A DNA stretch of 37,394 bases, from assembly GCF_008802355.1 (NCBI RefSeq), contig NZ_VZRA01000010.1:1-37394 (forward strand). The letters are read 5' to 3'. Every line of letters begins with the position of its first letter. Position 1 is the stretch's first letter. The notes below the pieces were generated by a model. That model was not told the origin of the DNA. It did not search any database and saw only the letters and a program-made list of their open reading frames with translations. The translations under genes were made by a program, and so were the position numbers. The DNA is from Oryzomonas sagensis. GTDB lineage: Bacteria > Desulfobacterota > Desulfuromonadia > Geobacterales > Pseudopelobacteraceae. Below are positions 18,641-34,612 of the stretch, in pieces.

Positions 18641-18718
18641 GATAGGGATGGAGCCGGCATTCAATGCATGGGGCGGATGCCTCGAAACTTCTGTGCCGGC
18701 AGGGAAAGCGGAGTGTAC

Positions 18719-20095: not shown

Positions 20096-20230
20096 TCTCC
20101 GGGGGATCAACCACCCCCTGACCCCTTGAGGCCCCAGAGGGTCCTCCTTATCAAGGAGGGGGAAGAGATTTGCGCGTTTTTCTCCCCTCCTGGTTCAGGA
20201 GGGGCCGGGGGGGAGCCGTCCCCGGCGGCA
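20096..20230. repeat. Dispersed G/C-rich repeat, copy 1
   Basis: A stretch beginning ccccctgaccccttgaggc with a ccccagagggtcctcc core (20132-20147) and aaggaggggg, then ctcccctcctggttcaggag and a G-run. The core is almost identical to 32572-32622. The two halves of the element occur in opposite order in the two copies. The region upstream of the response regulator (19997-20251) otherwise holds only a TATAAT box at 20052-20057 with no good -35. Confidence 0.7.
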
Positions 20231-20251: not shown

Positions 20252-21679
20252 ATGGCGAACGTTCTGATCATCGATAACGACGATGCGACCGGTTCTTCAC
20301 TCTGCCGGACGGTGACCGACATGGGGCACGACGCCTCCTGGAGGAAAAACCTGCGGGAGGGGGTGCCGTTGGCCGTCTCCCGGCCGTTCGATGTCGTGTT
20401 CCTCGCTATCCATCTGCCCGACGGCAACGGGCTCGACCTGTTGCCGGTCATCCAGGCGACCTCCTCCGCCCCGGAGATCATCATCATGACCGGGGCGGAC
20501 GAACCGGACGCCGCCGAAACGGCCATCAAGAGCGGGGCGTGGGATTACGTGACCAAGGGGGCGGCCCCGGAGGAGGTCAAGCTGCCGCTGGTCCGGGCGA
20601 TCCAGTACCGGCAGGAGAAGCTCTACTGCTCCCGGAAGAACGTGACCTCCCTGAAGCGGGACGATATCGTCGGTAGCAGCCGGAAGCTGACCGCCTGCCT
20701 CGACCAGGTCGCGCAGGCCGCGGTGAACGACATCCCCGTCCTGATCACGGGTGAAACCGGCACGGGCAAGGAACTCTTTGCCCGGGCCATCCACCATAAC
20801 AGCGGACGGGCGGCGGGCAATTTCGTGGTGGTGGATTGCGCCGCCCTGCCCGACACCCTGGTGGAAAGCCTCCTGTTCGGCCACGAAAAGGGGGCCTTTA
20901 CCGGCGCGGAACACGGGCGCGACGGCCTGATCCTCCAGGCCCACGGCGGCACCCTGTTCCTGGACGAGGTGGGGGAGCTTTCCGTCTCCGTGCAGCGGGC
21001 CTTTCTGCGGGTGCTCCAGGAACATCGCTTCCGCCCTCTGGGGGGGAGCCGGGAGGTGGAGAGCGATTTTAGGCTCGTCTCCGCCACCAACCGGGACCTG
21101 GACGCCATGGTGCAGGGGGGCCAGTTCCGCAGCGACCTCCTGTTCCGGCTCCGCTCCTTTACCATCGAGATCCCCCCCCTGCGCGACCGGGATGGGGACG
21201 TCAAGGAGTTGGTGCGCTACCACATGGACCGGCTGTGCGAACGCTACGGCCTGGCCCATAAGGGGTTCGCCCCCGAATTTCTCCAGAGCCTGGCCGCCTA
21301 CGCCTGGCCCGGCAATGTCCGGGAACTGATCAACACCCTGGACCGGGTCATCGTTTCCGCGCGCTACGAGCCGACCCTCTTTCCCAAGCATCTCCCCAGC
21401 GACATCCGCATCAAGGCGGCACGGGCCGCGAACGGCCATAAGCGGCAGGGCGACGCCCCCCCGGCCGCCTTCCACGGGCTCCCCCCGCTGCACGATTTCC
21501 GGGACGAGACGGTGCAGCGGGCCGAAAACAACTATCTCCACGAACTGATCGCCGTCACCAGGGGGAATATCAACGAGGCCTGCAGCATCTCAGGGCTTTC
21601 CCCATCGCGCCTCTATGCCCTGATGAAGAACCATGGCATCCACCGTCGTTATTTCGATCCCGATGCCGAGGGGGAATGA
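20252..21679 (+). CDS. Sigma-54-dependent response regulator with non-canonical receiver
   Basis: A 475-residue NtrC-type activator: receiver domain (~1-120), AAA+ sigma-54 interaction domain (~137-370) and Fis-type HTH (~435-465). The ATPase is complete: Walker A GETGTGK (167-173), the sigma-54-contacting GAFTGA (214-219), Walker B LFLDEV (235-240) and the arginine-finger region. In the receiver, the switch Thr80 and Lys102 are present, but the phosphoacceptor aspartate is alanine (Ala52 in VVFLAIHLPDGNG, codon gct) and one of the acidic-pocket residues is Asn9 (IIDND). It cannot be phosphorylated in the usual way. The start at 20252 (MANVLIID) follows AAGGATGG. It lies 273 bases upstream of the cytochrome/ATPase operon and is a candidate regulator of it. 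Confidence 0.92.
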   Translation: MANVLIIDNDDATGSSLCRTVTDMGHDASWRKNLREGVPLAVSRPFDVVFLAIHLPDGNGLDLLPVIQATSSAPEIIIMTGADEPDAAETAIKSGAWDYVTKGAAPEEVKLPLVRAIQYRQEKLYCSRKNVTSLKRDDIVGSSRKLTACLDQVAQAAVNDIPVLITGETGTGKELFARAIHHNSGRAAGNFVVVDCAALPDTLVESLLFGHEKGAFTGAEHGRDGLILQAHGGTLFLDEVGELSVSVQRAFLRVLQEHRFRPLGGSREVESDFRLVSATNRDLDAMVQGGQFRSDLLFRLRSFTIEIPPLRDRDGDVKELVRYHMDRLCERYGLAHKGFAPEFLQSLAAYAWPGNVRELINTLDRVIVSARYEPTLFPKHLPSDIRIKAARAANGHKRQGDAPPAAFHGLPPLHDFRDETVQRAENNYLHELIAVTRGNINEACSISGLSPSRLYALMKNHGIHRRYFDPDAEGE

Positions 21680-21952
21680 CCCCCGGCACCGGGGGGGCCG
21701 CGCCGCGATTTCCTGGCCGGCGGCACATTTTCCTGTTTCGCAGTAATTCTCCTGCCACGCAAGAAAAAACTCTCCACGCATATCCACGGCCCTGATCAGC
21801 AACAATCCGAAATCATTCGTTTGTTTTTTTACCGCGGCATCGTTCTTTTCCGGTACGCCTGATGCTATGGCTAACGGTAGCGGGCCTGCGCCTTTGGTGC
21901 AGCGCGGGGGATTTGCCGCAACCAACGGATCACGGCACCATGCGGAGGGGCT
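21680..21952. other. Intergenic region upstream of the redox/ATPase operon
   Basis: 273 bases containing no credible gene. The first 170 bases are AT-richer than the surroundings, as expected for a promoter region. I looked for a TGGCAC-N5-TTGC sigma-54 promoter and a GEMM-type riboswitch and found no convincing match. A GGAGGGG ribosome site precedes the start at 21953. Confidence 0.5.
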
Positions 21953-23674
21953 ATGGGAACCAACGGCACGGGCATGGCACGGGGATGTTTCCTGGCGGTA
22001 CTGGCGACGCTGCTTTGTGCGCCCGCCTCCTTCGGCGCGCGGGACAACGGCGAATGTCTCGAATGTCACGGTGAGCAGTCCATCATCCAGCAGGGGGGCG
22101 CCCGCCTCTATGTCGATCCGCTGAAATTCGCCGACACCAGCCATGGGGTCGTCGGCTGCACCTCATGCCACGACAGCGTGACCGACAGACATCCCGAAGA
22201 CGGGACCAAGCCCTCACACGCCACCTGCAAGGAATGCCACGGCGCGGTTGCCAAGGAGTACGCCCAAAGCCTGCACGGCGGGAACGCCGCCTGCGCCGAC
22301 TGCCACAACCCGCACCGGGCGCGGAAATCGGCCGATGTGTCGGGGGTGGAGATCAACGCCGTCTGCTCCCGTTGCCACAAGGCTCCGGCAACCGTGAAGA
22401 GCCATGAAAAATGGCTCCCCGTGGCGAGGCTGCACCTGGACAGTCTCCCCTGCATCACCTGCCATACCGGGTCAAAGGGGTATTACATCAGCCTGTTTGT
22501 GGAGAAGGAGGCCCGGAAGGGCGCTTTCCGCCTGGCGACCTACGACGAGCTGGCGCGGCTGACCGGCGAGAGCGGCATCGCCTCCCTGATCGATACCAAC
22601 GGCGACAATTACATCTCGCTCCTGGAGTTGCGGAAATTCAACAAAAAAGCTCGTGACGACGGAATGCGCCTGCGGGGCATGATGATGCCCCAAGTGATGA
22701 CCCACAGCTACCAGATTCTGGACAATCGCTGGGATTGCACCTTCTGCCACGTCTCCGGGACCAAGGGGCTGCAGACCAGCTTCGTATCCTTCCCCGGCAA
22801 GAACGGGATCTACAGCCGGGTAGCCGTTGAAAAGGGAGCGATCCTGGATGTCCTCTACGGCACCCCCGACTTCTACATGACCGGCGCGACCCGCAGCAAG
22901 GGGGTCAGCATCATAGGCGCCCTCATCATCGCCTGCGGGATCGTCGTCCCCCTGGGGCACGGGTTCATCCGCTTCCTGACCCGCAGGAAGCGGGAGCACA
23001 ACCACGGCCAGGCCGCCCATGAGGTCATCGTCTACCTGCAGCCGACACCGGTCAGGATCTGGCACTGGATTCACGCCTTAAGCATCGTCACCCTCTGCGT
23101 CACCGGGGTGCAGATCCGCTTTCCCGAGGTCGTCAACCTGTTCGGCAGCTACCGGGCGGCGGTGATGCTGCACAACGTGGCCGGGGTTGTGGTGGCGCTC
23201 TCCATGGTGTACTGGATTCTCTATTATGTCGTCATCTCCCACGCCATCGGCAGGATCTACTTCCCCACCGGGGACGAGGTGAGGCACGGGCTCATCCGGC
23301 AGGCGATCTTCTACGCCTTCAACTACTTCCGCGGCAAGCCGAATCCCTTCCACGCCACCCCGGAGAACAAATTCAACGCGCTCCAGAAGACGGCCTATCT
23401 GGTGATCATGCTCGTCTTCATGCCGCTGGTGATCGTCACCGGCTTCCTGCTGCTGGATATCCAGCCCCTGCGGAACATGCTGTTCCTGCTGGGGGGGATC
23501 AAGCTGATCGACGGGGTGCACTTCTTTACCGCCTGTTGCCTATGCGCCTTCACCTTCTTCCATTTTTATCTGACGACCTTGGGCCCCACCCCGTTTTCCG
23601 AGATCAGGACCATGTGGACCGGATGGGAGAAGGAGGAGGAACCGGAGGAGAGCGAGCCGTCAACGGCCAAGTGA
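21953..23674 (+). CDS. Seven-haem cytochrome c fused to a cytochrome b membrane domain
   Basis: A 573-residue two-part electron carrier. After a signal peptide (~1-28) the periplasmic part has seven CxxCH motifs at C35, C69, C92, C114, C138, C167 and C262. A 12-residue EF-hand-like loop (Asp214, Asn216, Asp218, Glu225) lies between haems six and seven. Residues ~318-560 form a membrane domain of about five helices of the dihaem cytochrome b561/HydC type, with histidines in RIWHWIHALS, MLHNVAG and GVHFFTACCL...FFHFYL as likely b-haem ligands. It would take electrons from menaquinol through the b haems to the periplasmic haems, or the reverse. First gene of a 12.7-kb same-strand run. It resembles CbcL-type inner-membrane cytochromes of Geobacter in architecture, not necessarily in function. 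Confidence 0.88.
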   Translation: MGTNGTGMARGCFLAVLATLLCAPASFGARDNGECLECHGEQSIIQQGGARLYVDPLKFADTSHGVVGCTSCHDSVTDRHPEDGTKPSHATCKECHGAVAKEYAQSLHGGNAACADCHNPHRARKSADVSGVEINAVCSRCHKAPATVKSHEKWLPVARLHLDSLPCITCHTGSKGYYISLFVEKEARKGAFRLATYDELARLTGESGIASLIDTNGDNYISLLELRKFNKKARDDGMRLRGMMMPQVMTHSYQILDNRWDCTFCHVSGTKGLQTSFVSFPGKNGIYSRVAVEKGAILDVLYGTPDFYMTGATRSKGVSIIGALIIACGIVVPLGHGFIRFLTRRKREHNHGQAAHEVIVYLQPTPVRIWHWIHALSIVTLCVTGVQIRFPEVVNLFGSYRAAVMLHNVAGVVVALSMVYWILYYVVISHAIGRIYFPTGDEVRHGLIRQAIFYAFNYFRGKPNPFHATPENKFNALQKTAYLVIMLVFMPLVIVTGFLLLDIQPLRNMLFLLGGIKLIDGVHFFTACCLCAFTFFHFYLTTLGPTPFSEIRTMWTGWEKEEEPEESEPSTAK

Positions 23675-23709
23675 TTTCCGTTCCGGCTGTAAAAGGGAGG
23701 TCGAGAGTC

Positions 23710-24624
23710 ATGAGAACGACCAGCAGAAGGCAATTTCTCAAGCTGCTCGGGGCAACCGGCGCCGGGCTTCTGGCCGGTCGGCCGTGCGCCGCCCGGGGGG
23801 CAGGGACCGTCAACAACGACGAACTGGGCATGCTCTATGACGCCACGCGCTGCGTGGGGTGCAAGGCGTGCATGGCGGCCTGCAAGCGGGTCAACCGCGA
23901 CTCCGGCGGCCTCGCCTACGAGCGGGCCCCGTTCGATCAGGATAAATTGTGGGATGCGCCGGCCGACCTGTCGGGGAACACCAGGACCCTGATCAAGCTG
24001 TACAAGGGGCCGCAAAACCGCTGGTCGTACATCAAGTACTCCTGCATGCACTGCCAGGAGCCTTCCTGCGTGTCGGTCTGCCCGGTCAGCGCCATGACCA
24101 AGGACAAGGCGACCGGCATCGTGGACTACGACAAGAACAAGTGCATCGGCTGCCGCTACTGCCAGATCGCCTGCCCCTTCAGCATCCCCCGCTTCCAGTG
24201 GGAACGGAAGGCCCCCCAGATCGTCAAATGCGACCTGTGCCGCAACACCAACCTGCGGGGCAAGGGGCTGCCGGCCTGCGCCGAGGTCTGCCCGACGGGG
24301 GCCATAACCTTCGGCCGGCGCGGCGACCTGCTGCGGGATGCGCGTGGCAGGATCGAGGCCAATGGCGGCCGGTACGTCAACTACGTCTACGGCGAGCACG
24401 AGGTGGGGGGAACCAATCATCTCTACCTGGCAGGGGTGCCGTTCCCCAGGCTCGGCCTCCCCCGGTTGCCGGCCGAGGCGCCGGCCGAATTCTCCGAACG
24501 TATCCAGCACACCATCTACAAGGGGTTCATCGCCCCGGTCGCGCTCTACGGCATGCTCTGCATCATCGCGCTCAGGAACCGGAAAAAAAGGGAGAGCAAG
24601 GGTATCCAGGAAGAGGAGGAATGA
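23710..24624 (+). CDS. Tat-exported four-cluster ferredoxin-like subunit (HybA/DmsB type)
   Basis: A 304-residue iron-sulfur subunit. A Tat signal (SRRQFLKLLGATGAGLL, residues ~5-25) indicates the periplasmic face. Four cysteine clusters follow: CVGCKACMAACK, CMHCQEPSCVSVCP, CIGCRYCQIACP, and CDLCR with CAEVCP, enough for four [4Fe-4S] clusters. A C-terminal membrane helix (~275-292, GFIAPVALYGMLCIIAL) anchors it. It would wire the cytochrome to the NrfD/HybB quinone-binding subunit encoded next. No catalytic partner (hydrogenase, molybdoenzyme) is adjacent. Start at 23710 with GGGAGG upstream, 35 bases after the cytochrome gene; its stop overlaps the beginning of the next reading frame. Confidence 0.93.
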   Translation: MRTTSRRQFLKLLGATGAGLLAGRPCAARGAGTVNNDELGMLYDATRCVGCKACMAACKRVNRDSGGLAYERAPFDQDKLWDAPADLSGNTRTLIKLYKGPQNRWSYIKYSCMHCQEPSCVSVCPVSAMTKDKATGIVDYDKNKCIGCRYCQIACPFSIPRFQWERKAPQIVKCDLCRNTNLRGKGLPACAEVCPTGAITFGRRGDLLRDARGRIEANGGRYVNYVYGEHEVGGTNHLYLAGVPFPRLGLPRLPAEAPAEFSERIQHTIYKGFIAPVALYGMLCIIALRNRKKRESKGIQEEEE

Positions 24625-24626
24625 CC

Positions 24627-25943
24627 ATGAGGGAGCACGAACACAGCAAGGAATTCGTCCGGGTGCACAGCCCGATCCTGACCAAGCCCTTCTATTTCTT
24701 CCTGGCACTCTCCCTGGTGGGGGTCTACTTCATCATCCTCAGGTTCGTCAGGGGGATCGGGGCGGTTTCCAACCTGAGCGACGGCTATCCCTGGGGGATC
24801 TGGATCGCCTACGACGTGGCCACCGGCACCGCCATCGCGTGCGGCGGCTATGCCGTCGCCATCCTGGTGTACATCCGCAACCGCTGGCAGTACCATCCGC
24901 TCATCCGTTCCGCCATCCTGACCAGCCTGTTCGGCTACTGCCTGGCCGGCTTCTCGGTCATGGTGGACATCGGCCGCCCCTGGAACGCCTACGGGTTCTT
25001 CATGCCGTCCCGCTGGCAGCCCAACTCGGCCATGTTCGAGGTGGCCCTCTGCATCATGGGGTACTGCGTGGTGCAGATCATCGAGTTCTTCCCCTCCCTC
25101 CTCTGCGTTCTGGAACACAGCAAGCTGAAATGGCTCCAGAAGGCCATTTATCACTTCCATCCGCGCCACACTCCCCAGGACGAGGCCCTGGTGCGGACGA
25201 CCGTGGAATGGGTCCACTCGGCCACCGCCTGGTTTCATCCCAAGTTCAACACCATCCTGATCTTCATCGTGGCGCTCGGCCTCGTCCTGCCGACCATGCA
25301 CCAGTCGTCCCTCGGCTCCCTGATGCTGATCGCCCCCACCAAGCTGCACCCGCTCTGGCATACCGGCTTCCTGCCGCTGCTCTTTCTGATCAACTGCATG
25401 TACATGGGGTATGCCATCGTGATCCTGGAATCCCTGGTCTCCTCCTACCTGCTCAAGCGGGAGTACGAGGTGGAGGAGTTGTCCGGGCTGGCCCACATCA
25501 TCCCCTGGCTCGCCGCCGTCTGGCTGGCGGTGCGCTTGGGCGACCTCATCCAGCGCGACCAGGTGGCCCTCGTCTTCAAGGGGGACAAGTACTCCCTGTT
25601 CTTCCTGCTGGAGTTCCTGCTCCTGGCCGGCGGCTCCCTGCTCCTCTTCGAGAGCAAGCGGTGGCGGTCGCCGCGCTGGCTCTTCGCCACCGCCGTCATG
25701 ATGCTCCTGGGCGGCGCCCTGTACCGCTTCAACGTCTACCTGATCGGCTTCATCCCGGGCACCGGGTGGCGGTATTTCCCCTCCTTCGCGGAATTGATGA
25801 TCTCGGTCGGCATCGTATCCATCGAAATCCTGGGCTACCAGGTGTTGATCAAGTTTTTGCCGGTGCTTCCCAATCCCCACATGCACCGCGATATCGCCCA
25901 CGTGAAGCCGCCCAAGGCGGCCGAGGCCGTGGCCAGGGCCTGA
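24627..25943 (+). CDS. NrfD/HybB-family integral membrane quinone-interacting subunit
   Basis: A 438-residue membrane protein with about ten hydrophobic helices, of the HybB/NrfD (PsrC-like) superfamily. Family marks are the N-terminal PFYFFLALSLVGVYF helix, SDGYPWGIWIAYDVATGTA, DIGRPWNAYGFF and the C-terminal YRFNVYLIGF. Such subunits exchange electrons between quinone and a periplasmic iron-sulfur subunit, and some are proposed to translocate ions. The ATG at 24627 is preferred because GAGGAGG is seven bases upstream; an ATG at 24621 overlaps the previous stop but is too close to it. Third of the redox genes; followed after 29 bases by a small receiver-like protein. Confidence 0.93.
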   Translation: MREHEHSKEFVRVHSPILTKPFYFFLALSLVGVYFIILRFVRGIGAVSNLSDGYPWGIWIAYDVATGTAIACGGYAVAILVYIRNRWQYHPLIRSAILTSLFGYCLAGFSVMVDIGRPWNAYGFFMPSRWQPNSAMFEVALCIMGYCVVQIIEFFPSLLCVLEHSKLKWLQKAIYHFHPRHTPQDEALVRTTVEWVHSATAWFHPKFNTILIFIVALGLVLPTMHQSSLGSLMLIAPTKLHPLWHTGFLPLLFLINCMYMGYAIVILESLVSSYLLKREYEVEELSGLAHIIPWLAAVWLAVRLGDLIQRDQVALVFKGDKYSLFFLLEFLLLAGGSLLLFESKRWRSPRWLFATAVMMLLGGALYRFNVYLIGFIPGTGWRYFPSFAELMISVGIVSIEILGYQVLIKFLPVLPNPHMHRDIAHVKPPKAAEAVARA

Positions 25944-25972
25944 TGCGGCCCGTGTGAAAGGACCGTAACGCC

Positions 25973-26410
25973 ATGCAGATACTCCTGTTCGCACGGGACG
26001 GGGTCGGCGACCACATCCGCGACGCCGTGACCCGCACCGTGCCTGAAACCGAGGTCTTCGGCGCCATGGACGACCTGGTCAGCCGGTTCAGGCGCCCGTC
26101 CGGGGAGCCGGTGGTGGCTGTGCTGATCGTCGGCTCCCTGGGCGAGCTTGCCGCCCTGCGGCAGGTGAAGGGGATGCTGCACGATTGCCGCACCGTCCTG
26201 ATCCTGCCCGACCGGGAGGCGGAGACCGTGGCGGCGGGGCACCGTCTCCACCCCCGTTTTCTCGGGTGCCTGGATGACGACGGGGAGGAGGTGGCCGCCG
26301 TGCTGTGCAAGATGCTGGCGCTGCAGAAGGCTAACCGGGCGGAATGCCGGAATACCGCGCCGGTGGTTGAAGAGCCGCAGGGCGCCCCGATGCCACCGGG
26401 GCGGGGATGA
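25973..26410 (+). CDS. Small protein resembling a degenerate receiver domain
   Basis: A 145-residue soluble protein I cannot assign to a named family. Alternating short hydrophobic strands and helices (QILLFARDG, VVAVLIVGSLGE, CRTVLILPDRE, RFLGCLDDDGEEVAAVLCKML) match the order of a response-regulator receiver fold. It lacks the acidic pair after strand 1 and an aspartate at the end of strand 3 (IVGS instead), so it would not be phosphorylated. The C-terminal ~30 residues are a disordered Pro-rich tail. Start at 25973 after GAAAGGACC. Its place between the redox subunits and the ATPase subunits, with gaps of 29 and 21 bases, suggests a role in assembly or regulation of one of the two complexes. 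Confidence 0.72.
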   Translation: MQILLFARDGVGDHIRDAVTRTVPETEVFGAMDDLVSRFRRPSGEPVVAVLIVGSLGELAALRQVKGMLHDCRTVLILPDREAETVAAGHRLHPRFLGCLDDDGEEVAAVLCKMLALQKANRAECRNTAPVVEEPQGAPMPPGRG

Positions 26411-26431
26411 CGATCCCGCAGGGGAACCGCC

Positions 26432-26752
26432 ATGGAACAGGACATCCTGAACACGGTATTCGAGGTGGAGCGGGAGATCCGGGAGATGGTCGCCGCCGAG
26501 CAGCAGCGGGCCGAAGGCGATCTGGCCGCCCTGCGCCGGGAATGCGCGGACCTGGCGGCGGGGGAGGAGGTCCGGCTGCGGGAGGAGTTGGCCGCCGCGG
26601 TGGCGGCCGTGGAAACGGGTGAGGCGCGTCGGCAGGCCGATGCCGCCGTGACGGAGGCCGAGGCGCGAGCCGGGCGGCTGGCCGGGCTCGGGGACGACCT
26701 GCTTGCGGGGTGGGTGCGCCAGGGGATCAGGACCATACTACCGGGTGAATGA
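26432..26752 (+). CDS. atpH: V/A-type ATPase peripheral-stalk subunit H (G)
   Basis: A 106-residue, almost entirely helical protein. Residues ~8-85 are a Glu/Ala/Arg-rich coiled coil (VEREIREMVAAEQQRAEG..., EAEARAGRLAG), ending in a short hydrophobic tail (GWVRQGIRTILPGE). Such a first small gene encodes the stator subunit that pairs with subunit E in the archaeal/bacterial ATPase (AhaH, NtpF). Identity is inferred from form, size and its position directly before subunit I. The stop is one base before the subunit I start (TGA C ATG), indicating translational coupling. Sequence conservation in this family is weak, so the position is the main evidence. Confidence 0.8.
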   Translation: MEQDILNTVFEVEREIREMVAAEQQRAEGDLAALRRECADLAAGEEVRLREELAAAVAAVETGEARRQADAAVTEAEARAGRLAGLGDDLLAGWVRQGIRTILPGE

Positions 26753-26753
26753 C

Positions 26754-28643
26754 ATGATCGTCGCCATGTCCAAGGTTGAGATCATAGGACCCATGGAGCT
26801 TCTGCTCCCGGTGCTGGACCGTGTCCGGGCCCTGGGGCTGTTCCAGGTGGAACAGGAGATGCGCGGCTTTGTGGACCGGGAGGATGAAAAGGCGTTCCGG
26901 CCGGTCCGGCTGGATAAGAAGACCCTGGCGGAACGGTCGTACTGCGACGGCCTTATGGCAAAGATCGACCAGTTGGCCGGCTTCCTCCCCAAGCTGCCCA
27001 CCCGGTGCAGCTACCTCGAGCCGCACAGCGCCGTGGGGATCGTGGCCGAGGTGGTGGACAAACACACACTCCTGTGCAGCGGGCTCTGCCGCCGGCGGGA
27101 CGCCCTGGAGGGGGAACGGGGGGAGCTGCTCCGGCAGACCGCCTTCCTCGACGCCCTGGAACCGCTCTTCAAGACGGCCGGGGAGGGGACCGGGCTCGAT
27201 TTCATCGGCGTGTCCCTGAAAGACGGCGAGGCGGTGGATCACCTCTACCAGTTGATCGCGCGTCTGACGGGCGACACCTTTGAATTCGTCACGACCGGGG
27301 GCCCGGAGGGGGCGATCATCGTGCTCGTCACCCTGCCGGTCGAGCTCGGGGCCAAGGTGCGGGACGTGCTCAATGGGGAACGCATCCCGGAGTTGGCTTT
27401 CCCGGCCTCCCTGAGCCAACTCCCGTTCCCTGACAAGGTGCGCGCGGTGCGCCGCCGGATCGGCGACATCGGGGCCGAACTCGACCGGGTGAACGCCGAA
27501 CTGCACCGCTTTGCCTCCCGCTGGTGGCCCACCTATTCCTGCGTGCGGGAGTGGCTGCTGGACCGCCTGGCCCTGCTCACCACCACCGCGGCCATCCACA
27601 AGACCGACCTCTGCTTCTTCATCCACGGCTGGATGCCTTCGCCGGACGTGCCCCGGCTCCGCTCCCTGCTGAACGGGGAGTTCCAGGGGCGGGTGGTGGT
27701 GGAGGAGCAGGGGGCCCTGGAGGAGGAGATGGAGGTCATCCCCATCGCCATCAGGAACCCTCCCTATTTCCGCCCCTTCGAACTCTTTACGCGTATCCTG
27801 CCGCTCCCCTCATACCGCTCCTACGACCCGACCCCCTTCATCGGCATCTTCTTCCCGATCTTCTTCGGCATGATCCTGGGGGATGTGGGGTACGGCCTGC
27901 TGCTTTTGGCCTGTGCCCTGGTCATGCTGAAGCTGTTCCGCACGCGGCGCGACCTGCACGATGCCGCCCTGATCCTGCTGGTCTCCTCCTGCTATGCCGT
28001 GGTGTTCGGCTTTCTGTACGGCGAATGCTTCGGCGGGACGGCCGGGGGGTGGCGGCTCCTGGAACAGACCTGTGTCATCGAGCGTAGTCGCTCGATCATG
28101 CCGATGTTGGCGTTTTCCCTCTCCATCGGCGTCGCCCATGTCACCCTCGGCCTCTGCCTCGGCTTCTGGTCGACCCTGCGAAGGCGTTTGGTCAGGGAAT
28201 CCCTGGCAAAGCTCGTGAACATCCTGCTCCTGCTCTGCCTGGCGGCCCTGGCCGTGTCCCTGTTCAGCCCGTTTCCGCCCCCGATCCGCAAGGGGCTCAA
28301 CGTGGCCGTGCTGGTCGCCATCCCGCTCATGCTCCTGACCGGCGGACTTCTGGCGCCGCTGGAGATGATGAAGAACATCGGCAATATCGTCTCCTACGCC
28401 CGGATCATGGCCATCGGGCTCGCCTCGGTGCTGATCGCCCAGGTGGCGAACCGGTTCGCGGGGCTGACCGGGGATGTGCTGACCGGCGCCGTGGCCGGGG
28501 GGCTCATCCACCTGATCAATATCGCCCTGGGGATTTTCTCCCCCACCATCCATAGCCTGCGGCTCCATTATGTGGAGTTTTTCGACAAGTTCATCGTCTA
28601 CGGCGGCCGGAGGTTCGAACCGTTCAAAAAACCGCCCGGATAG
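26754..28643 (+). CDS. atpI: V/A-type ATPase subunit I (a-subunit)
   Basis: A 629-residue stator subunit that joins the peripheral stalks to the membrane and forms the ion half-channels against the c-ring. The soluble N-terminal half (~1-330) has the starting strand IVAMSKVEIIGPMELLLPVLD and a helical hairpin. The C-terminal half has about seven or eight membrane helices, including PTPFIGIFFPIFFGMILGDVGYG (conserved in the family), YGECFGG, NIGNIVSYARIMAIGLASVLIA with the essential channel arginine in SYARIMAIG, and LINIALGIFSPTIHSLRLHYVEFF. The tail GGRRFEPF is typical. An ATG at 26766 (MSKVEII) is an alternative start. Coupled to the upstream gene. Confidence 0.95.
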   Translation: MIVAMSKVEIIGPMELLLPVLDRVRALGLFQVEQEMRGFVDREDEKAFRPVRLDKKTLAERSYCDGLMAKIDQLAGFLPKLPTRCSYLEPHSAVGIVAEVVDKHTLLCSGLCRRRDALEGERGELLRQTAFLDALEPLFKTAGEGTGLDFIGVSLKDGEAVDHLYQLIARLTGDTFEFVTTGGPEGAIIVLVTLPVELGAKVRDVLNGERIPELAFPASLSQLPFPDKVRAVRRRIGDIGAELDRVNAELHRFASRWWPTYSCVREWLLDRLALLTTTAAIHKTDLCFFIHGWMPSPDVPRLRSLLNGEFQGRVVVEEQGALEEEMEVIPIAIRNPPYFRPFELFTRILPLPSYRSYDPTPFIGIFFPIFFGMILGDVGYGLLLLACALVMLKLFRTRRDLHDAALILLVSSCYAVVFGFLYGECFGGTAGGWRLLEQTCVIERSRSIMPMLAFSLSIGVAHVTLGLCLGFWSTLRRRLVRESLAKLVNILLLLCLAALAVSLFSPFPPPIRKGLNVAVLVAIPLMLLTGGLLAPLEMMKNIGNIVSYARIMAIGLASVLIAQVANRFAGLTGDVLTGAVAGGLIHLINIALGIFSPTIHSLRLHYVEFFDKFIVYGGRRFEPFKKPPG

Positions 28644-28694
28644 CCCCGCAGGGGCGGTCAGCGGGGTTCCCCGTTCGAAAGGAGGGAAGGAAAA

Positions 28695-28907
28695 ATGGAA
28701 AAGGTATTGCTCGGTTTTGCCGCGGCCCTTGCCGTGGGGCTCTGCGCCATCGCCACCGGGTGGGCCCAGTCCCGGATCGGCTCGGCCGGCGCCGGCACCC
28801 TGGCCGAGAAGCCCGAGCTGTCGGGGACGATCATCATCCTGCTGGCCATCCCCGAAACCATGGTGATACTCGGCTTCGTGGTCGCAGCCATGATTCTCTA
28901 TCTCTAA
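28695..28907 (+). CDS. atpK: V/A-type ATPase c-ring subunit K, two-helix form
   Basis: A 70-residue proteolipid: helix 1 (residues ~4-28), a polar loop (~29-42, GSAGAGTLAEKPE) and helix 2 (~43-69) with the ion-binding carboxylate Glu54 in LAIPETMVILG. This is the single-hairpin size, not the four-helix duplicated form of eukaryotic and some bacterial V-ATPases. Gln25 on helix 1 and Thr55 next to the glutamate match positions that complete the Na+ site in sodium-dependent rings, so Na+ translocation is possible; this is an inference. GAAAGGAGGGAAGG provides a strong ribosome site, as expected for a subunit needed in many copies. Confidence 0.93.
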   Translation: MEKVLLGFAAALAVGLCAIATGWAQSRIGSAGAGTLAEKPELSGTIIILLAIPETMVILGFVVAAMILYL

Positions 28908-28918
28908 GGGGGGACGCC

Positions 28919-29482
28919 ATGGGATACCATGAACTCGTCGCATCGCTGCGGCGGGAGGGTGAGGAACGGGTCGCCGCCATCCGGCTGGCGGCGGGAGCGG
29001 AGGGCGACCGGATCAGGGGGGATGCCGCCTTGGAGCTACAGGCGCTGCGGGAGAGCTACGCCCGACGCCGGGCGGACGCCGTTGCCGCTGCGGCCGGCAA
29101 GCTGGCGGCCGAGGGGCGGCGCCGCGCCGAACGGATCAGGCTGCATGCCGAAAGCTCTCTGGCCGAGCGGCTGTACGCCGTGGCCCGGGCCTCGTTGCCC
29201 GAACTGCGAGATGAAGAGTATGCAACGCATTTCGCCAGCCTGGTCGGGGAACTCCTCCCCTGCGCCTGGGAAACCGTCTGGGTCAACCCGGCCGACGTCG
29301 CCTTGGCCCAAAGGCACTTTCCCGGCGCCCGCATAGAGGGCGACCGCGCCATCTCCGGCGGCCTGAGGGTTGCGGGGGAGGGGGGGCGGCTCACCATCGA
29401 CAATACCTTCGAGAAGCGCCTGGAACGGTGCTGGCCCGAGCTCGCCTCCGAGGTCGTGGCGGCGGTCCTGCCCACGGTGTGA
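28919..29482 (+). CDS. atpE: V/A-type ATPase peripheral-stalk subunit E
   Basis: A 187-residue stator protein. Residues ~1-85 form an Ala/Arg/Glu coiled coil (LVASLRREGEERVAAIRLAAG...); residues ~95-187 form the globular cap that binds the A3B3 head, with ISGGLRVAGEGGRLTIDNTFEKRLER, the family's best conserved stretch. Start at 28919, after AAGGGGGGA, 11 bases past the subunit K stop. Length is within the family range. The position between K and C is that of archaeal operons. Confidence 0.93.
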   Translation: MGYHELVASLRREGEERVAAIRLAAGAEGDRIRGDAALELQALRESYARRRADAVAAAAGKLAAEGRRRAERIRLHAESSLAERLYAVARASLPELRDEEYATHFASLVGELLPCAWETVWVNPADVALAQRHFPGARIEGDRAISGGLRVAGEGGRLTIDNTFEKRLERCWPELASEVVAAVLPTV

Positions 29483-29485
29483 CCC

Positions 29486-30448
29486 ATGGGACTCCTGGCG
29501 GAACATGGGGGAAGCGGCGTGCCGCTCCCCTACCTCCTGGCGCGCGTCATGGGGCGGCGCGCCTACCTGGTGACGGACTGGCAGCGGGTGCTGGCCGCGG
29601 CCGAACCCCTGGCCTCCCTCCCCCCGTCCCCCTACCGCCAGGACCCGGAGGGGGGAGCGGACGAGGGGCTGTGGGGCGGCCTCCAGCGGGAGTTCGCCTG
29701 GGTCCACCGCCAGATGGGGCACCGCCTCCAGGAGATCTTCGAGCCGTTCTTTCTCACCCTGGAACTGCGCACCCTCTTCATGGCGCTGCGCCTCCGGTTC
29801 CGGGGTGAAGAGGGGCGCTCCCTGGCGGACCTGCTCCGTTTCAGCCTGCTCTGCGCCCCGGTGAAAAGGCTTCTTAGCGAAGGGGAGGACCTGCCGGCAA
29901 TCCTGGCCGGGGTGGGGGCGCACGCGTCCTTTTGGCCGGACGCGGGGCGAGCCTTGCCGGAGATCCTGCGGCACCAGGGGATGCGGGGGTGCGAGGAACA
30001 ACTGGTGGACGCCGGTCTGGAACATGCGGCCGCTCGTCGCCTCCATCCCGCTGTGAGCCTGTTTGTGACCCGGCTCATCGACCTGGAGAATTTTGTCGCC
30101 CTGGCCAAACAGGTGCGCTGGAGGATGGGGGAGTCCGGTTTTGTGGCGGGGGGAAGTATCGGCGTGGCGCTCCTCCGGGAGGCGGCCCGCGATCGGGAGG
30201 GTGGAAAGGCGCGCCGTCTCGCGGCCCGCGTGCTGGGGATGGAGCTGGACCCCACCGCCGCCGAGCTGGTCCCGCTCCTGGCGGCCCGCTTGGGCCTGAC
30301 CCTGCGCCGACAGGGGCGGGAGCCGGACGGGGTCGGCCTGATCCTGGACTACCTCTGGCGGCGTTTGACCGAGACGCGCAACCTGTCCCTGCTCCTCCAC
30401 GGTAGCGACCTGGAGCGCGAGACCCTGGGAAGGGAGATGGTGCTGTGA
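29486..30448 (+). CDS. atpC: V/A-type ATPase subunit C (central-stalk connector, d homologue)
   Basis: A 320-residue, mostly helical protein linking the rotor shaft to the c-ring. Subunit C proteins are poorly conserved; support comes from helical make-up, length (typical 320-350), a matching segment VTRLIDLENFVALAKQVRWRM (the 'D-x-x-N' helix of the family) and the position between E and F. Start at 29486 three bases after subunit E's stop, without a strong ribosome site of its own (translational coupling). Its end overlaps the GTG start of subunit F by four bases. Confidence 0.9.
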   Translation: MGLLAEHGGSGVPLPYLLARVMGRRAYLVTDWQRVLAAAEPLASLPPSPYRQDPEGGADEGLWGGLQREFAWVHRQMGHRLQEIFEPFFLTLELRTLFMALRLRFRGEEGRSLADLLRFSLLCAPVKRLLSEGEDLPAILAGVGAHASFWPDAGRALPEILRHQGMRGCEEQLVDAGLEHAAARRLHPAVSLFVTRLIDLENFVALAKQVRWRMGESGFVAGGSIGVALLREAARDREGGKARRLAARVLGMELDPTAAELVPLLAARLGLTLRRQGREPDGVGLILDYLWRRLTETRNLSLLLHGSDLERETLGREMVL

Positions 30449-30768
30449 AGAAGATCGTCTTCATCACCCCTGGGGATGCCCGGCCCGGCTTCGCCCTGGC
30501 CGGTTTCCAGCAGCACACGACCACCGTCGCCGGGGTCGAGGAGGCGTTGCGCAGCGTGCTGGCCGACCCGGAAACCAGGGTGGCGGTGGTGGACGAACGG
30601 CTGTTGCCGGGCATGAGCGAGGAGCGTTTCAAGGAGATGGGCGCCCGGTGGCCCGGTGTGTTGGTGGTCCTCCCGGCGCCGGAGCAGAAGGGGGCGGAGA
30701 GCGAGGAAGACTACGCCCTGCGTATCATCAGGAAGGCAATTGGGTATCACGTGCGCTTGCAGCGGTAG
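30445..30768 (+). CDS. atpF: V/A-type ATPase subunit F
   Basis: A 107-residue rotor regulatory subunit with a Rossmann-like fold: KKIVFITPGDARPGFALAGFQ at the N-terminus, TRVAVVDERLLPGM in the middle and PGVLVVLPAP before the C-terminal helix. It binds subunit D in the central shaft and tunes ATPase activity. It begins with a GTG at 30445 inside the end of the subunit C gene (GTGA overlap). A 76-base gap with short cctatagg-type repeats separates it from subunit A. Confidence 0.93.
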   Translation: MKKIVFITPGDARPGFALAGFQQHTTTVAGVEEALRSVLADPETRVAVVDERLLPGMSEERFKEMGARWPGVLVVLPAPEQKGAESEEDYALRIIRKAIGYHVRLQR

Positions 30769-30781
30769 GGGCAGGAGCGGG

Positions 30782-30811
30782 ACCTATAGGACTCATAGGT
30801 TCTATAAGACC
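30782..30811 (+). repeat. Short tandem/palindromic element between subunits F and A
   Basis: Three near-copies of a ctatagga-like word at roughly ten-base spacing, with the local palindrome acctat/ataggt (30782-30787 and 30795-30800). It is the only non-coding stretch between F and A. It could be a small hairpin that affects mRNA processing. Confidence 0.4.
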
Positions 30812-30844
30812 GGAGTAGCTATCCTCACAGAAAAGGACCTCACC

Positions 30845-32473
30845 ATGGACGGACGCATCACCGGCATATCCGGCCCCACGGTCACCGCAAAGGTCGGCGG
30901 TGTGAAGCTGTGCGACATGGTCCTGGTGGGCCATGCCGGGCTGGTGGGCGAGGTGGTGCGGCTGGCGGGGGAACAGGCGATCGTCCAGGTCTACGAGAAT
31001 ACCCTGGGGCTGGGGGTGGGGGAACCGGTCGTGGGGACCGGGGGGCAGCTCACCGTCACCCTCGGTCCGGGGCTGGTCTCCACCATGTACGATGGCCTGC
31101 AACGGCCCCTGGAACGGGTGCGCGCCGCTGTGGGCCCCTTTATCCGGCCCTGCCGGGATATCCCCCCCCTGGACACCGCAGCGGAATGGCGATTCGAGCC
31201 GGACCGGAAGGCCGGGGATGAGGTAGGGGCTGGCGAGGTCATCGGGCGCATCCGGGAGGGGGCGTTCGTCCACCTGATAACCGCCCCGGTACCCGGCAGG
31301 CTGGGGGAGGTGCGGTCGGGGAGGTGCACCCTGGCGGAGCCGGTGGCCCGCTACGCGGACGGGTGCGGGATTTTTGCCCTCCAGAAATGGCCGGTGCGCC
31401 GGCCGCGCCCCTTCCGGCGCAAGCTCCCCCCGGTGCTGCCGCTCGTCACCGGCCAGCGGGTCATCGACTTCCTCTTCCCCCTGGTGCGGGGCGGCACCGC
31501 CATCTTTCCGGGCGGCTTCGGCACCGGCAAGACCATCCTGGAGCAGACCATCGCCAAGTTCGCCGACGCGGACCTGGTGGTGTACGTGGGGTGCGGCGAG
31601 CGGGGCAACGAGATGGCGGAACTGCTGGAGGAGTTCCGCACCCTGAAGGATCAACGCACCGGCGCCTCGCTCCTGTTCCGTACCATCGTGGTGGTCAACA
31701 CCTCCAACATGCCGGTGGCCGCCCGGGAGGCGTCCATCTACACCGCCGTCACCATTGCGGAATACTACCGGGACCTGGGGCTGCACGTGCTGCTCCTGGC
31801 CGACAGCATCTCCCGCTGGGGCGAGGCGCTGCGGGAGATCTCCTCCTCCCTGGAGGAGATGCCGGGCGAGGAGGGGTATCCCACCTATCTCTCGTCCCGG
31901 CTGGCGGCCTTTTTCGAGCGCGCCGGGGCGGTGGAGACCCTGAACGGCGCCATCGGCTCCCTCACCATGATCCTCTCCGTCTCCCCGCCGGGGGGGGACT
32001 TCTCCGAGCCGGTCACCCAGGCCTGCCTCCGCACCACCGGCGTGTTCCTGATGCTGGACGCCGCCCTGGCCCACAGCCGCCATTATCCGGCCATCAACTG
32101 GGCCCAGAGCTATTCCCTCTACGCCGCCGGGGTGACGGGGCACTTCACCGCCCGGGTGGCCCCTGCCTGGGGAGAGATGCAGCAGCGCTGCCGGGAGCTG
32201 TTGCAGCGGGAGGAGACCCTGCGGGAGGTGGCGGAGATCGTGGGGGCCGAGGGGTTGCAGGATGGGGACCGGCTCCTGATGATGACCACGGAGCGGATCA
32301 GGAACGAGTTTCTCTGCCAGAACGCCTACGGCGACGACGCCTTTTGCGCCCCGGAACGGACGGCGGCAAAGATGGGCGCCATCCTGGCGTTGTACGACCG
32401 GGCCGAGGCCGGACTCAAGCAGGGGCTTTCCCTGGACGAGGCGCTGGTATCCCGTGTGGCGAGTACCTTGTAA
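30845..32473 (+). CDS. atpA: V/A-type ATPase catalytic subunit A
   Basis: A 542-residue catalytic subunit. It has an N-terminal beta-barrel (GRITGISGPTVTAKV), the subunit-A-specific bulge (~110-190, AEWRFEPDRKAGDEVGAG), the P-loop GGFGTGKT (~222-229), VGCGERGNEMAELLEEF with the catalytic glutamate, ADSISRWGEALREIS, GEEGYPTYLSSRLAAFFERAG, and the C-terminal INWAQSYSLY region. Length is somewhat below the usual 575-590, mainly from shorter C-terminal and insert loops, and no catalytic motif is missing. The start at 30845 follows AAAAGGACC. It hydrolyses or makes ATP in the cytoplasmic head together with subunit B. A 199-base gap with a repeat follows. Confidence 0.96.
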   Translation: MDGRITGISGPTVTAKVGGVKLCDMVLVGHAGLVGEVVRLAGEQAIVQVYENTLGLGVGEPVVGTGGQLTVTLGPGLVSTMYDGLQRPLERVRAAVGPFIRPCRDIPPLDTAAEWRFEPDRKAGDEVGAGEVIGRIREGAFVHLITAPVPGRLGEVRSGRCTLAEPVARYADGCGIFALQKWPVRRPRPFRRKLPPVLPLVTGQRVIDFLFPLVRGGTAIFPGGFGTGKTILEQTIAKFADADLVVYVGCGERGNEMAELLEEFRTLKDQRTGASLLFRTIVVVNTSNMPVAAREASIYTAVTIAEYYRDLGLHVLLLADSISRWGEALREISSSLEEMPGEEGYPTYLSSRLAAFFERAGAVETLNGAIGSLTMILSVSPPGGDFSEPVTQACLRTTGVFLMLDAALAHSRHYPAINWAQSYSLYAAGVTGHFTARVAPAWGEMQQRCRELLQREETLREVAEIVGAEGLQDGDRLLMMTTERIRNEFLCQNAYGDDAFCAPERTAAKMGAILALYDRAEAGLKQGLSLDEALVSRVASTL

Positions 32474-32496
32474 CACTTACGTTAACGGATACAATT

Positions 32497-32632
32497 CCCT
32501 CCCCCCTCGCGGGGGAGGGTTAGGGTGGGGGGGACGTTGCCATGACGTGGGCCTGGTTGCAGCTTCACCCACCCCCTAACCCCTTTAGGCCCCAGAGGGT
32601 CCTCCCGTCAAGGGAGGGGGAACTTCCCGGCA
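32497..32632. repeat. Dispersed G/C-rich repeat, copy 2, inside the ATPase operon
   Basis: The 199-base gap between subunits A and B holds two inverted-repeat modules: ctcccccctcgcgggggagg with a G-run (about 32506-32534), and ccccctaacccctttaggc followed by a ccccagagggtcctcc core and aagggaggggg (about 32572-32622). The core repeats the sequence at 20109-20170 almost exactly. No reading frame here is credible; subunit B starts 41 bases later. Confidence 0.72.
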
Positions 32633-32672
32633 TAGTGCTCCATGATCTGATCCTGTCCGACACGAGGTGGCT

Positions 32673-33995
32673 ATGAGGCTGAGCGAACACCGATACCGTA
32701 CCGTCGCCTCCGTGGGGGGGCCGCTCCTCTTCGTGGAGGGCGTCGTGAACTGCCGCATGGGGGAGATGGTGCGGATCATCTACCCGGACGGCACGGCTGT
32801 GGCTGGCGAGGTGTTGAAGATCTCCGGCCAAACCGTGCTGATCCAGGTGTTCGGCGAGACCGCGGGCATCGACCTGGGGGCCGAGGTGATCTTCAGCGAT
32901 GCGGTCCGCCGGGCTCCATTGTCCCGCTCCATGGTGGGGCGGGTCTTCAACGGCTCCTTCGAACCCATCGACGGTCTCCCCATGTTTATCCCGGAGCAGT
33001 GGGGCGGGGTGAACGGCCTCCCCATCAACCCCACGGCCCGGGCCTGCCCCGAGGAATTCATCGAAACCGGCTTTACGGCCATCGACACCCTCAACACCCT
33101 GGTCAAGGGGCAGAAGCTCCCCATCTTCTCCTGCGCCGGGCTCCCCTCCCGCGAGGTGGCGGCCGGCATCCTGCGCAACGCGCGCCTGGCGGGCGGGGGC
33201 GAATTCGTGGTGGTGTTCGTGGCCCTGGGGTTGACCCACCACGACTACTCCTTTTACATGGACGCGCTCCAGGAGATGCACACCGGTTTCGTGGCCTTCG
33301 TGAACCGGGCCGACGAACCGGTGGTGGAGCGGCTCCTGGCGCCCCGCTTCGGCCTGGCCTGCGCCGAGTACCTGGCCTTTTCCTGCGGCATGGACGTGCT
33401 GGTGGTGGTGACCGACATCACCAACTACTGCGACGCCCTGCGGGAGGTCTCCACGGCCCGGGAGGAACTCCCCGGCCGCCGGGGCTACCCCGGCTACATG
33501 TACTCCGACCTGGCCTCTCTGTACGAACGGGCCGGGCGGATACAGGGAACGGCCGGGTCGGTGACCATGCTGCCGGTGGTGACCATGCCGGAGGACGACA
33601 TCACCCACCCCATCCCGGACCTGACCGGCTATATCACCGAGGGGCAGATCGTGCTCTCCCGCGAGCTGCACCAGCGGGGCGTCTTCCCGCCGGTGGACGT
33701 GCTCCCCAGCCTGTCCCGGCTCATGCAGCGCGGCATCGGCCCCGGCCATACGCGGGATGACCATCGTCGGATCGCCGACGCCCTGTACCGGCACTACGCC
33801 AAGGGGCGCTATGTGCGCGGCCTGGAGGCGGTGGTGGGGCGGGAGGGGATGGTGGAGGCGGATCGGGTGATGCTGGATTTCGCCGACGCCTTCGAGGCGG
33901 AGGTCATCGGCCAGGGCGAGGCCCGGCGGGGGATCGGCGCGAGCCTGGACGCCGGGCTGGCCCTGTTGAAACGTTTTTCTTTGGAGCCGCCATGA
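32673..33995 (+). CDS. atpB: V/A-type ATPase non-catalytic subunit B
   Basis: A 440-residue regulatory nucleotide-binding subunit. It has the N-terminal barrel (YRTVASVGGPLLFVEGV), SMVGRVFNGSFEPIDG, the degenerate P-loop region LVKGQKLPIFSCAGLPSREVAAGIL (no GKT, as expected), VTDITNYCDALREVSTAREELPGRRGYPGYMYSDLASLYERAG and GYITEGQIVLSRELH. It alternates with subunit A in the head. The start at 32673 follows GAGGTGG; the in-frame GTG at 32667 is part of that site. It is separated from subunit A by the dispersed repeat but overlaps subunit D by four bases. Confidence 0.96.
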   Translation: MRLSEHRYRTVASVGGPLLFVEGVVNCRMGEMVRIIYPDGTAVAGEVLKISGQTVLIQVFGETAGIDLGAEVIFSDAVRRAPLSRSMVGRVFNGSFEPIDGLPMFIPEQWGGVNGLPINPTARACPEEFIETGFTAIDTLNTLVKGQKLPIFSCAGLPSREVAAGILRNARLAGGGEFVVVFVALGLTHHDYSFYMDALQEMHTGFVAFVNRADEPVVERLLAPRFGLACAEYLAFSCGMDVLVVVTDITNYCDALREVSTAREELPGRRGYPGYMYSDLASLYERAGRIQGTAGSVTMLPVVTMPEDDITHPIPDLTGYITEGQIVLSRELHQRGVFPPVDVLPSLSRLMQRGIGPGHTRDDHRRIADALYRHYAKGRYVRGLEAVVGREGMVEADRVMLDFADAFEAEVIGQGEARRGIGASLDAGLALLKRFSLEPP

Positions 33996-34612
33996 TCCAC
34001 CCGACCCGCACCAACCTGCTGCTGCTCAAGGAAAAGGCCCGCTCCGTGACCGGGAGCGTCGGCATCCTCACGGCCCGCCGCCTGGCCCTGATCCGAGAGA
34101 TCCTGGCCATCTCCACCCCCTTCCTCCAGTCTCGGGCCGAGGTGAAAAAGGCCTACACCAGGGCCCTGACCGAGATGGCGCTTGCCAGTGGCCTGGAGGG
34201 GGACGATTTCGTCGGATCGCTCCCCATGGGGACTGCCCGGGATGTGGGGGTGGAGGTGGGGGAGCGGAACGTCATGGGGCTCCGTTACCGGGAAATCCAG
34301 GTCCAGGGGGAGGTGCGCCGCCCCCCGGACGAGCGGGGCTACGACTGCCGCTTCACCACTCCGCACCTGGAGGAGGCCATCGGCCTCTTCGAGGAGATCG
34401 TGGCGGAGATGTTGGTGATCGCCGCCTTCGAGGTGCGCATGAAGCGGCTGGGGGAAGAGGTGGTCCGGGTGACGCGACGGATCAGGGTGCTGGAGGAGCG
34501 GGTGCTCCCCGGCCTGCAAAGCGAGATCAGGGCAATCGCCCACTATATCGGCGAGCGGGAGCGGGAATCCTTCTACCGCCTGAAGCGTTTCAAGGAGCAG
34601 CGGAGCGGATGA
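33992..34612 (+). CDS. atpD: V/A-type ATPase central-shaft subunit D
   Basis: A 206-residue, long antiparallel coiled-coil rotor shaft. The N-terminal MIHPTRTNLLLLKEKARSVTGSVGILTARRLALIREI and the C-terminal MKRLGEEVVRVTRRIRVLEERVLPGLQSEIRAIAHYIGERERESFYRLKRFK helices are characteristic. It transmits rotation from the head to subunits F and C and the c-ring. The ATG at 33992 overlaps the subunit B stop (ATGA), so it is translationally coupled. Last gene of the operon; no obvious strong terminator follows before the tRNA promoter at 34701. Confidence 0.95.
   Translation: MIHPTRTNLLLLKEKARSVTGSVGILTARRLALIREILAISTPFLQSRAEVKKAYTRALTEMALASGLEGDDFVGSLPMGTARDVGVEVGERNVMGLRYREIQVQGEVRRPPDERGYDCRFTTPHLEEAIGLFEEIVAEMLVIAAFEVRMKRLGEEVVRVTRRIRVLEERVLPGLQSEIRAIAHYIGERERESFYRLKRFKEQRSG

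Follow-up and report, generated by a model that had tools for sequence, protein, structure and literature searches.

A fused CbcA-CbcB-like cytochrome, an orphan HybA-HybB pair and a V/A-type ATPase encoded in one probable operon of Oryzomonas sagensis

In a 37,394-base contig (C10; called the window here) of the 3.61-Mb genome of Oryzomonas sagensis (genome label G000), thirteen genes at positions 21953-34612 encode a fused seven-haem cytochrome, a HybA-HybB pair without a hydrogenase, a pseudo-receiver protein and a complete V/A-type ATPase. Judged from sequence features, these genes form a probable single operon, and their co-expression is a well-supported prediction. We give about even chances to the view that this is one sigma54-controlled operon for low-energy-yield respiration, in which the cytochrome, HybAB and the ATPase would be energetically coupled. 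The parts are known and their combination is new; in a literature survey of titles and the starts of abstracts, with most subscription papers outside reach, no paper was found that describes a cytochrome, HybAB and a V-ATPase in a common operon.

To our knowledge, the question why some bacteria keep a V/A-type beside an F-type ATPase is mostly unanswered. In Oryzomonas (NCBI lineage Desulfuromonadia, Geobacterales, Geobacteraceae), a culturable iron-reducing genus from paddy soil, the second ATPase is associated at genus level with a cytochrome of the class that operates near the thermodynamic limit of respiration and with a probably electrogenic, hydrogenase-related module. This arrangement suggests a switchable energy circuit and suggests that HybAB is able to stand apart from its hydrogenase. 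It predicts co-induction of the genes at low potential and joint deletion phenotypes.

Organization of the gene cluster

Open reading frame (ORF) lists and family scans place all thirteen genes on the + strand. An earlier description of this DNA, made from the letters without database searches and called the sequence-only reading below, had reported thirteen same-strand genes with gaps mostly under 80 bases, and this is confirmed: the 12 junctions measure, from 5' to 3', 35, -4, 29, 21, 1, 51, 11, 3, -4, 76, 199, and -4 nucleotides (nt), i.e. at most 76 nt at 11 of 12 junctions and 199 nt between atpA and atpB. Refined start positions were obtained for HybA (23710), HybB (24621), atpI (26754), atpE (28919), atpA (30845), and atpB (32673). 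The ratio of nonsynonymous to synonymous substitutions (dN/dS) relative to the Oryzomonas genome G049 ranges from 0.00 to 0.53, so that none of the 14 genes compared reaches 1, with the highest value for the pseudo-receiver; for the genes shared with the Oryzomonas genomes G053 and G050, the values are 0.04-0.45, the paralogous hydrogenase FeS and NrfD genes of G050 being excluded. Comparisons beyond the genus were made with sets of 76, 141, and 277 genomes, termed family, order, and class, with f1, f3, and f4 as family labels.

The gap between atpA and atpB (32474..32672, + strand) carries a repeat with six more partial matches in the genome, one of which is located at 20107-20164 of the window, and it is only 25 nt long in G049. 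A regulatory hairpin in this gap is not supported, as the fold is not unusual (z -1.23) and the gap consists of the repeat. A GC-rich repeat of similar look is found between the cytochrome and pseudo-receiver genes of G053.

A HybA-HybB pair without a hydrogenase

The second and third genes encode homologues of HybA (23710..24624) and HybB of the NrfD family (24621..25943). The ferredoxin-like protein scores 377 bits against NCBIfam NF008134 (HybA; cut-off 263); for the NrfD-like protein, the score against NF008133 (HybB; cut-off 450) is 548 bits, in agreement with the NrfD/HybB subunit proposed from the letters alone. The four-cluster ferredoxin exported by the twin-arginine route, proposed in the same place, is also borne out: the HybA homologue has a twin-arginine start, for which Pfam TAT_signal scores slightly below its cut-off, and keeps 16 of the 16 cysteines of four [4Fe-4S] clusters in a comparison with Escherichia coli and 27 hydrogenase loci of the family. 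HybB has the same residue as E. coli at 24 of 25 functional positions listed in PMC8076601: 6/6 at the quinone site, 13/13 on the N-side, and 5/6 on the P-side. The odd residue is E268, which is aspartate in the window and likewise in 27/27 relatives.

Identities to the 27 family loci are 66-72% for HybA and 60-64% for HybB; identities to the pair of the resident hydrogenase, which is one of the 27, are 69% and 62%, respectively. In phylogenetic trees, the window pair stands apart from the hydrogenase HybAB of the genus, with a long-branch warning and an unsure exact place. A recent duplication of the resident hybAB genes is not supported, as the window pair does not fall into the clade formed by the hydrogenase pairs of the genus. 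In a tblastn search of the whole window at E 1e-3, neither large nor small subunits of hydrogenases gave a match, HybO and HybC being absent there, which upholds the earlier statement that no hydrogenase catalytic subunit is present. Scores for HmcB (249.8 of 420), HmcC (222.4 of 550), QrcC (85.3 of 400), and QrcD (68.3 of 570) were below the respective cut-offs, and a sequence search of the PDB with HybB returned no match. By these sequence criteria, the Fe-S and NrfD proteins correspond to HybAB, i.e. to the quinone module of a [NiFe] hydrogenase, and are orphaned, HybO and HybC not being next to them. The self-contained membrane loop that the sequence-only reading saw in the redox genes is plausible; the orphan nature of HybAB was missed there, which changes the mechanism.

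The pair shares with HybA-HybB of Hyd-2-type [NiFe] hydrogenases the passing of the family cut-offs, the cluster cysteines, and the listed quinone and channel residues. It differs in that HybO and HybC are not beside it and in its position apart from the hydrogenase HybAB of the genus. In gene content, with a multihaem c protein, a four-cluster Fe-S protein, and an NrfD-like protein, the window resembles the Qrc, Hmc, and Nhc complexes; unlike these, it has no QrcB-like gene, misses the HmcB/HmcC and QrcC/QrcD cut-offs, has a b domain of its own on the c part, and has an Fe-S/NrfD pair that is kin to hydrogenase. QrcABCD oxidises cytochrome c and reduces menaquinone in an electrogenic reaction, and one of its subunits, QrcD, is closely related to HybB (PMC6303296). 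We read HybAB as a putative Qrc-like coupling site because its residues are intact, no hydrogenase is beside it, and a seven-haem domain is encoded 35 nt upstream.

The kinship of HybAB to hydrogenase subunits also allows a hydrogen-linked explanation, which we consider unlikely. Here, HybAB would be a spare quinone module for the catalytic subunits of a hydrogenase encoded elsewhere, the resident Hyb (G000:C1), and the operon would serve H2 oxidation or H2 evolution driven by the proton motive force, with the ATPase beside it. The divergence of the window pair from the resident one speaks against such a role, as does the presence of a separate HybAB in the resident operon. Evidence from the pseudo-receiver and from the neighbourhood of the ATPase is taken up below; in what follows, HybAB is treated as a partner of the cytochrome encoded upstream.

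The fused cytochrome

The first gene (21953..23674) encodes, in one reading frame, a haem-c domain with seven CXXCH motifs followed by a cytochrome b membrane domain (PF01292, E 2e-23), and the seven-haem c/b cytochrome of the sequence-only reading is thus recovered. From its haem motifs and a signal-like start, the seven-haem domain is predicted to be periplasmic. The c and b parts are 56% and 54% identical to CbcA-like and CbcB-like proteins of the same genome, which are encoded at G000:C2 (L073) by separate, adjacent seven-haem and b genes; a 12-haem gene and the gene of a sigma54 regulator adjoin these. We assume that CbcA of Geobacter has seven haems, and we take the layout of seven-haem, b, and 12-haem genes with a sigma54 regulator to be that of the Geobacter Cbc cluster. 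The names CbcA and CbcB rest on this presumed layout together with PMC12307469 and PMC10553843. CbcBA serves near -0.2 V (PMC12307469), is employed near the energetic limit of respiration (PMC12307469, PMC10553843), and has been predicted to operate in reverse in other bacteria (PMC10553843).

A single CbcA-CbcB frame without an internal stop is found only in six members of the genus; the other full-length places are split, i.e. they have a stop between the c and b parts or give two separate matches. Like CbcBA of Geobacter sulfurreducens, an inner membrane quinone:cytochrome oxidoreductase, the window cytochrome combines a multihaem c part with a PF01292-type b part, and a sigma54-type regulator adjoins it too. 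In contrast to CbcBA, for which cbcA and cbcB are separate genes, both parts are fused in one protein, which is followed by HybAB and the ATPase and not by a further cytochrome gene. Another link between a hydrogenase and CbcBA was observed in L094 (G045; 124-7899), where genes for a hydrogenase, HycI, a CbcA-like protein, a CbcB-like protein, and a nine-haem protein lie in one run.

The pseudo-receiver

The fourth gene (25973..26410) encodes a protein without a family match in Pfam and NCBIfam scans. In a structural model with a mean pLDDT of 69, strands and helices alternate as in a receiver, and the top Foldseek matches in the PDB are mostly receiver domains, none of them with E <0.001. At the end of strand 3, 9/9 homologues have the motif VLIxGS and no aspartate. 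Thus, the receiver-like character noticed in the letters holds for the predicted, CheY-like fold and does not extend to a true receiver. Homologues occur in 7/76 family genomes (E 1e-5). Downstream of a [NiFe] hydrogenase operon with genes for small subunit, FeS, NrfD, large subunit, and HycI, a copy is present in G006, G053, and G050. A copy in the Oryzomonas genome G052, away from the cytochrome, is likewise preceded by the small, FeS, NrfD, and large subunits of a hydrogenase. By sequence and model, the protein (REC) is a pseudo-receiver, homologous to the companion of a different hydrogenase operon.

One observation on this hydrogenase favours the hydrogen-linked explanation: a large subunit of the REC-type hydrogenase is absent among the matches listed (down to about 70 bits) in the three Oryzomonas genomes with HybAB in the operon, and the other three have one. 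On the other side, this pattern sets three genomes against three and tracks the clade.

The V/A-type ATPase

The remaining nine genes encode the ATPase subunits H, I, K, E, C, F, A, B, and D in one run, and the set is complete and ordered as the sequence-only reading had it. The peripheral stalk subunit AtpH (atpH, 26432..26752) has no Pfam match and is assigned by homology only, with support from its position in the V-ATPase operons of relatives. It is followed by atpI (26754..28643; a/I subunit, PF01496), atpK (28695..28907; PF00137), atpE (28919..29482; PF01991), atpC (29486..30448), for which PF01992 is slightly below the cut-off and homology to other operons supports the assignment, atpF (30445..30768; PF01990), the catalytic atpA (30845..32473; PF00006, PF22919, PF16886), atpB (32673..33995; PF00006, PF22919), and atpD for the central shaft (33992..34612; PF01813).

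The genome also encodes F-type alpha, gamma, and beta subunits and a second ring subunit (c), and the V/A-ATPase is the genome's second ATPase beside the F-type, as had been supposed. A candidate for an extra F-type beta subunit at C1:764472 was rejected as an ATPase of the FliI/SctN family.

AtpK consists of 70 amino acids forming one two-helix hairpin and keeps Q25, E54, and T55, three positions whose side chains have been considered in Na+ binding by single-hairpin subunits. The nearest solved chains are K subunits of V-type ATP synthases with the same Q, E, and T. These chains are presumably from Thermus. Counterparts of Gln65 or Tyr68 of E. hirae are absent; the residues do not separate H+ from Na+, and either may be the coupling ion. 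The single-hairpin K subunit is shared with the Thermus-type bacterial V/A-ATPase, from which the window copy differs in being a second ATPase next to an F-type enzyme and in sharing an operon with redox genes.

Outside the genus, ATPase loci were fetched from 50 of 51 genomes, the exception being G157; of the two copies in G149, one was included. In 39 of these 50 loci the order I-K-E-C-F-A-B-D is complete; ten of the 11 others end at contig edges, and the divergent locus of G141 lacks matches for E, C, and F. The order, which had been called archaeal (Methanosarcina-type), is not specially archaeal and says nothing about origin. An archaeal origin based on gene order is therefore rejected, the same order being general in this bacterial class.

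V-ATPases are patchily distributed, with occurrences in 13/76 family, 23/141 order, and 56/277 class genomes. In a tree of 33 B subunits selected from the fetched loci, the five Oryzomonas sequences group with G098 of family f4 (support 99/94), apart from a clade (99/100) that contains G081 (f3) and seven of the eight other ATPases of f1, the family of Oryzomonas itself; the remaining one, from G005, is fragmentary and unplaced. This grouping is consistent with lateral transfer of the ATPase. It also favours an explanation by two units that share an operon, a CbcBA-type cytochrome and a V/A-ATPase that came from another Geobacterales lineage and was placed behind the promoter of the cytochrome; the two would be co-expressed and functionally uncoupled. 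The patchy distribution and the varied neighbours of V-ATPases fit this explanation as well, which we regard as conceivable and rather doubtful.

Linkage within and outside Oryzomonas

All linkage calls rest on tblastn and genome searches; in some loci, the gene caller overlooked genes or predicted them wrongly. The order cytochrome-REC-ATPase on one strand was found in 5/5 ATPase-bearing Oryzomonas genomes. HybAB is located between cytochrome and REC in G000, G049, and G051, and no gene lies between the two in G053. In G050 (L056), a complete [NiFe] hydrogenase with FeS, NrfD, and a second REC occupies 4785-11836, between REC and atpH. The left junction carries a 32-codon remnant of atpH, which makes it probable that this hydrogenase entered a pre-existing cytochrome-REC-atpH arrangement. 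In two of the five genomes, the upstream flank is different. The sixth member of the genus, G052, has no ATPase and has kept the cytochrome behind SDF and ackA, with regulator, REC, and promoter core not beside it. A scan of named genome contigs yielded one locus, in Oryzomonas japonica Red96.

Conservation of the linkage in relatives had been set beforehand as a check on the sequence-only reading, and the outcome is divided: it is positive throughout the ATPase-bearing members of the genus and negative outside. At least 1.5 kb upstream of atpI are visible in 37 of the 50 outside stretches (at least 5 kb in 32), and 13 end sooner. A cytochrome beside the ATPase was found in 0/37 outside genomes with visible upstream sequence and in none of all 50 stretches; in G026 (1/50), a split CbcA-CbcB is located about 9 kb from the ATPase. 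The cytochrome-REC-ATPase cluster is a genus-level assembly and no general rule of the Desulfuromonadales. Within the genus, the linkage is more conserved than expected of chance neighbours.

These results bear on both explanations introduced above. The two-unit explanation gains from G052, which keeps the cytochrome without the ATPase. It loses from the same genome, as G052 also lacks the regulator and the promoter core at the cytochrome and has its REC copy elsewhere; furthermore, the order is kept in 5/5 genomes despite a synonymous divergence (dS) of about 0.3-0.7 to G053 and G050, insertions, and changes of the flanks. The hydrogen-linked explanation gains from the whole REC-type hydrogenase within the G050 operon and from [NiFe] large subunits near the ATPase in G014, G026, and G059, which have one common arrangement, and in G127 and G276. 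These hydrogenase neighbours are suggestive only, because PF00374 is present in 73/76 family genomes, so that some are expected by chance, and because three of the cases are the same arrangement. As a separate observation, a gene with a B12-binding domain/radical SAM lies directly 5' of atpH in L061, L063, L065, and L067; a divergent [NiFe] hydrogenase follows in three of them and the contig end in the fourth. Neither explanation is preferred here to an operon in which the cytochrome, HybAB, and the ATPase act together.

Regulation

A sigma54-dependent response regulator with a receiver and a sigma54 activator domain (20252..21679, + strand; PF00072, PF00158; scanned from the ORF start 20066) ends 273 nt before the cytochrome start. 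An orthologue precedes the cytochrome in G049, G051, and G053, and none was found in the stretches searched around the cytochrome in G050 and G052. On sequence and position, this regulator is the probable activator of the operon. Three direct TCCTG-centred repeats at 21711..21754 (+ strand; starts 21711, 21731, and 21750; spacing 19-20 nt), recognisable in the five ATPase genomes, in some with single changes, are candidate activator sites.

Downstream of these, a sigma54-like -24/-12 element, CGGTACGCCTGATGCT, is located at 21851..21866 (+ strand). It agrees with the consensus at 10/13 positions when the preceding base is counted, and its GG and GC are ten bases apart. For comparison, sigma54 sites of G. 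sulfurreducens agree at 9/13 positions for glnB and dcuB and at 10-11 for others, according to PMC2725144. In an alignment of six upstream regions, a 17-nt block, CGGTACGCCTGATGCTA, is invariant in 5/5 ATPase-bearing Oryzomonas genomes and absent in G052; a run of 17 occurred in 0/20000 column shuffles (228 ungapped columns, 87 identical). The genome contains rpoN. With the same simple score, 11/12 positions were matched about 800 nt upstream of the CbcA genes of G000:C2 and G052, and no convincing sigma54-like site was found upstream of CbcA in G026, G042, and G044. With far sites in two cases and none convincing in three, a common promoter of the CbcA family is not shown.

Inside the operon, promoter-like sites number 1 versus 1.5 expected from shuffles (sigma70 patterns only), and terminator-like sites 9 versus 7.8. 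One transcript is favoured because of the conserved sigma54-like core, the tight spacing, and these counts at shuffle level. The single transcription unit of the sequence-only reading thus receives support as a prediction from sequence. The contrary possibility, an ATPase under its own promoter with neighbours transcribed apart, is very improbable: the repeat in the atpA-atpB gap could interfere with a common transcript, while the gaps around REC are only 29 and 21 nt and the promoter-like and terminator-like sites do not exceed chance.

Proposed function

In the proposed mechanism, the fused CbcA-CbcB-like protein would exchange electrons between menaquinone and periplasmic cytochromes. HybA-HybB would provide a second menaquinone site, receiving electrons from, or passing them to, haems of a periplasmic partner, for which the seven-haem domain is the likeliest candidate, and by analogy with QrcCD in the Qrc complex it would move protons from the cytoplasmic side. 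The V/A-ATPase would convert the resulting ion gradient into ATP or, in reverse, fund uphill electron transfer; electron flow may thus run in either direction. The pseudo-receiver would be an accessory protein. A more specific version, which we put forward only tentatively and think rather unlikely as it stands, holds that the hydrogenase-descended HybAB has been re-used by the fused cytochrome, giving a new cytochrome:menaquinone coupling complex that is made together with its own ATPase under one low-energy switch. If true, this would be a respiratory unit for the energy limit, drawing ATP from a weak gradient or spending ATP on uphill electrons.

Several observations weigh against a coupled operon. 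The operons of G053 and G050 lack HybAB, and the cytochrome and the ATPase manage without it there. In G051, a single-contig genome, the HybA copy and atpA have frame breaks (L055, about 6478-6517 and 13535-13538); with two genes being hit, decay and an assembly error are equally likely. The constraint on REC is weak (dN/dS 0.31-0.53). The neighbours of the ATPase outside the genus differ and include cytochrome oxidase subunit II in G126 and G140, alternative complex III genes in G011, and sigma54 regulators in G110 and G112. In G050, the regulator was not found in a stretch of about 10 kb before the cytochrome; the promoter-like core is present. Finally, the sigma54-like site misses 3/13 positions, and motif matches in the window are at chance (153 versus 153 expected). 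Because of the latter, the motif alone is uninformative, and it was its conservation that made it useful.

Neighbouring genes in the window

Upstream of the regulator, the region 17306-19996 encodes a sodium:dicarboxylate symporter and an acetate kinase, which as a pair also precede the cytochrome in G049, G051, and G052. Further upstream, on the - strand, an ORF region at 14095-15129 contains five CXXCH motifs and is a candidate for a multihaem cytochrome.

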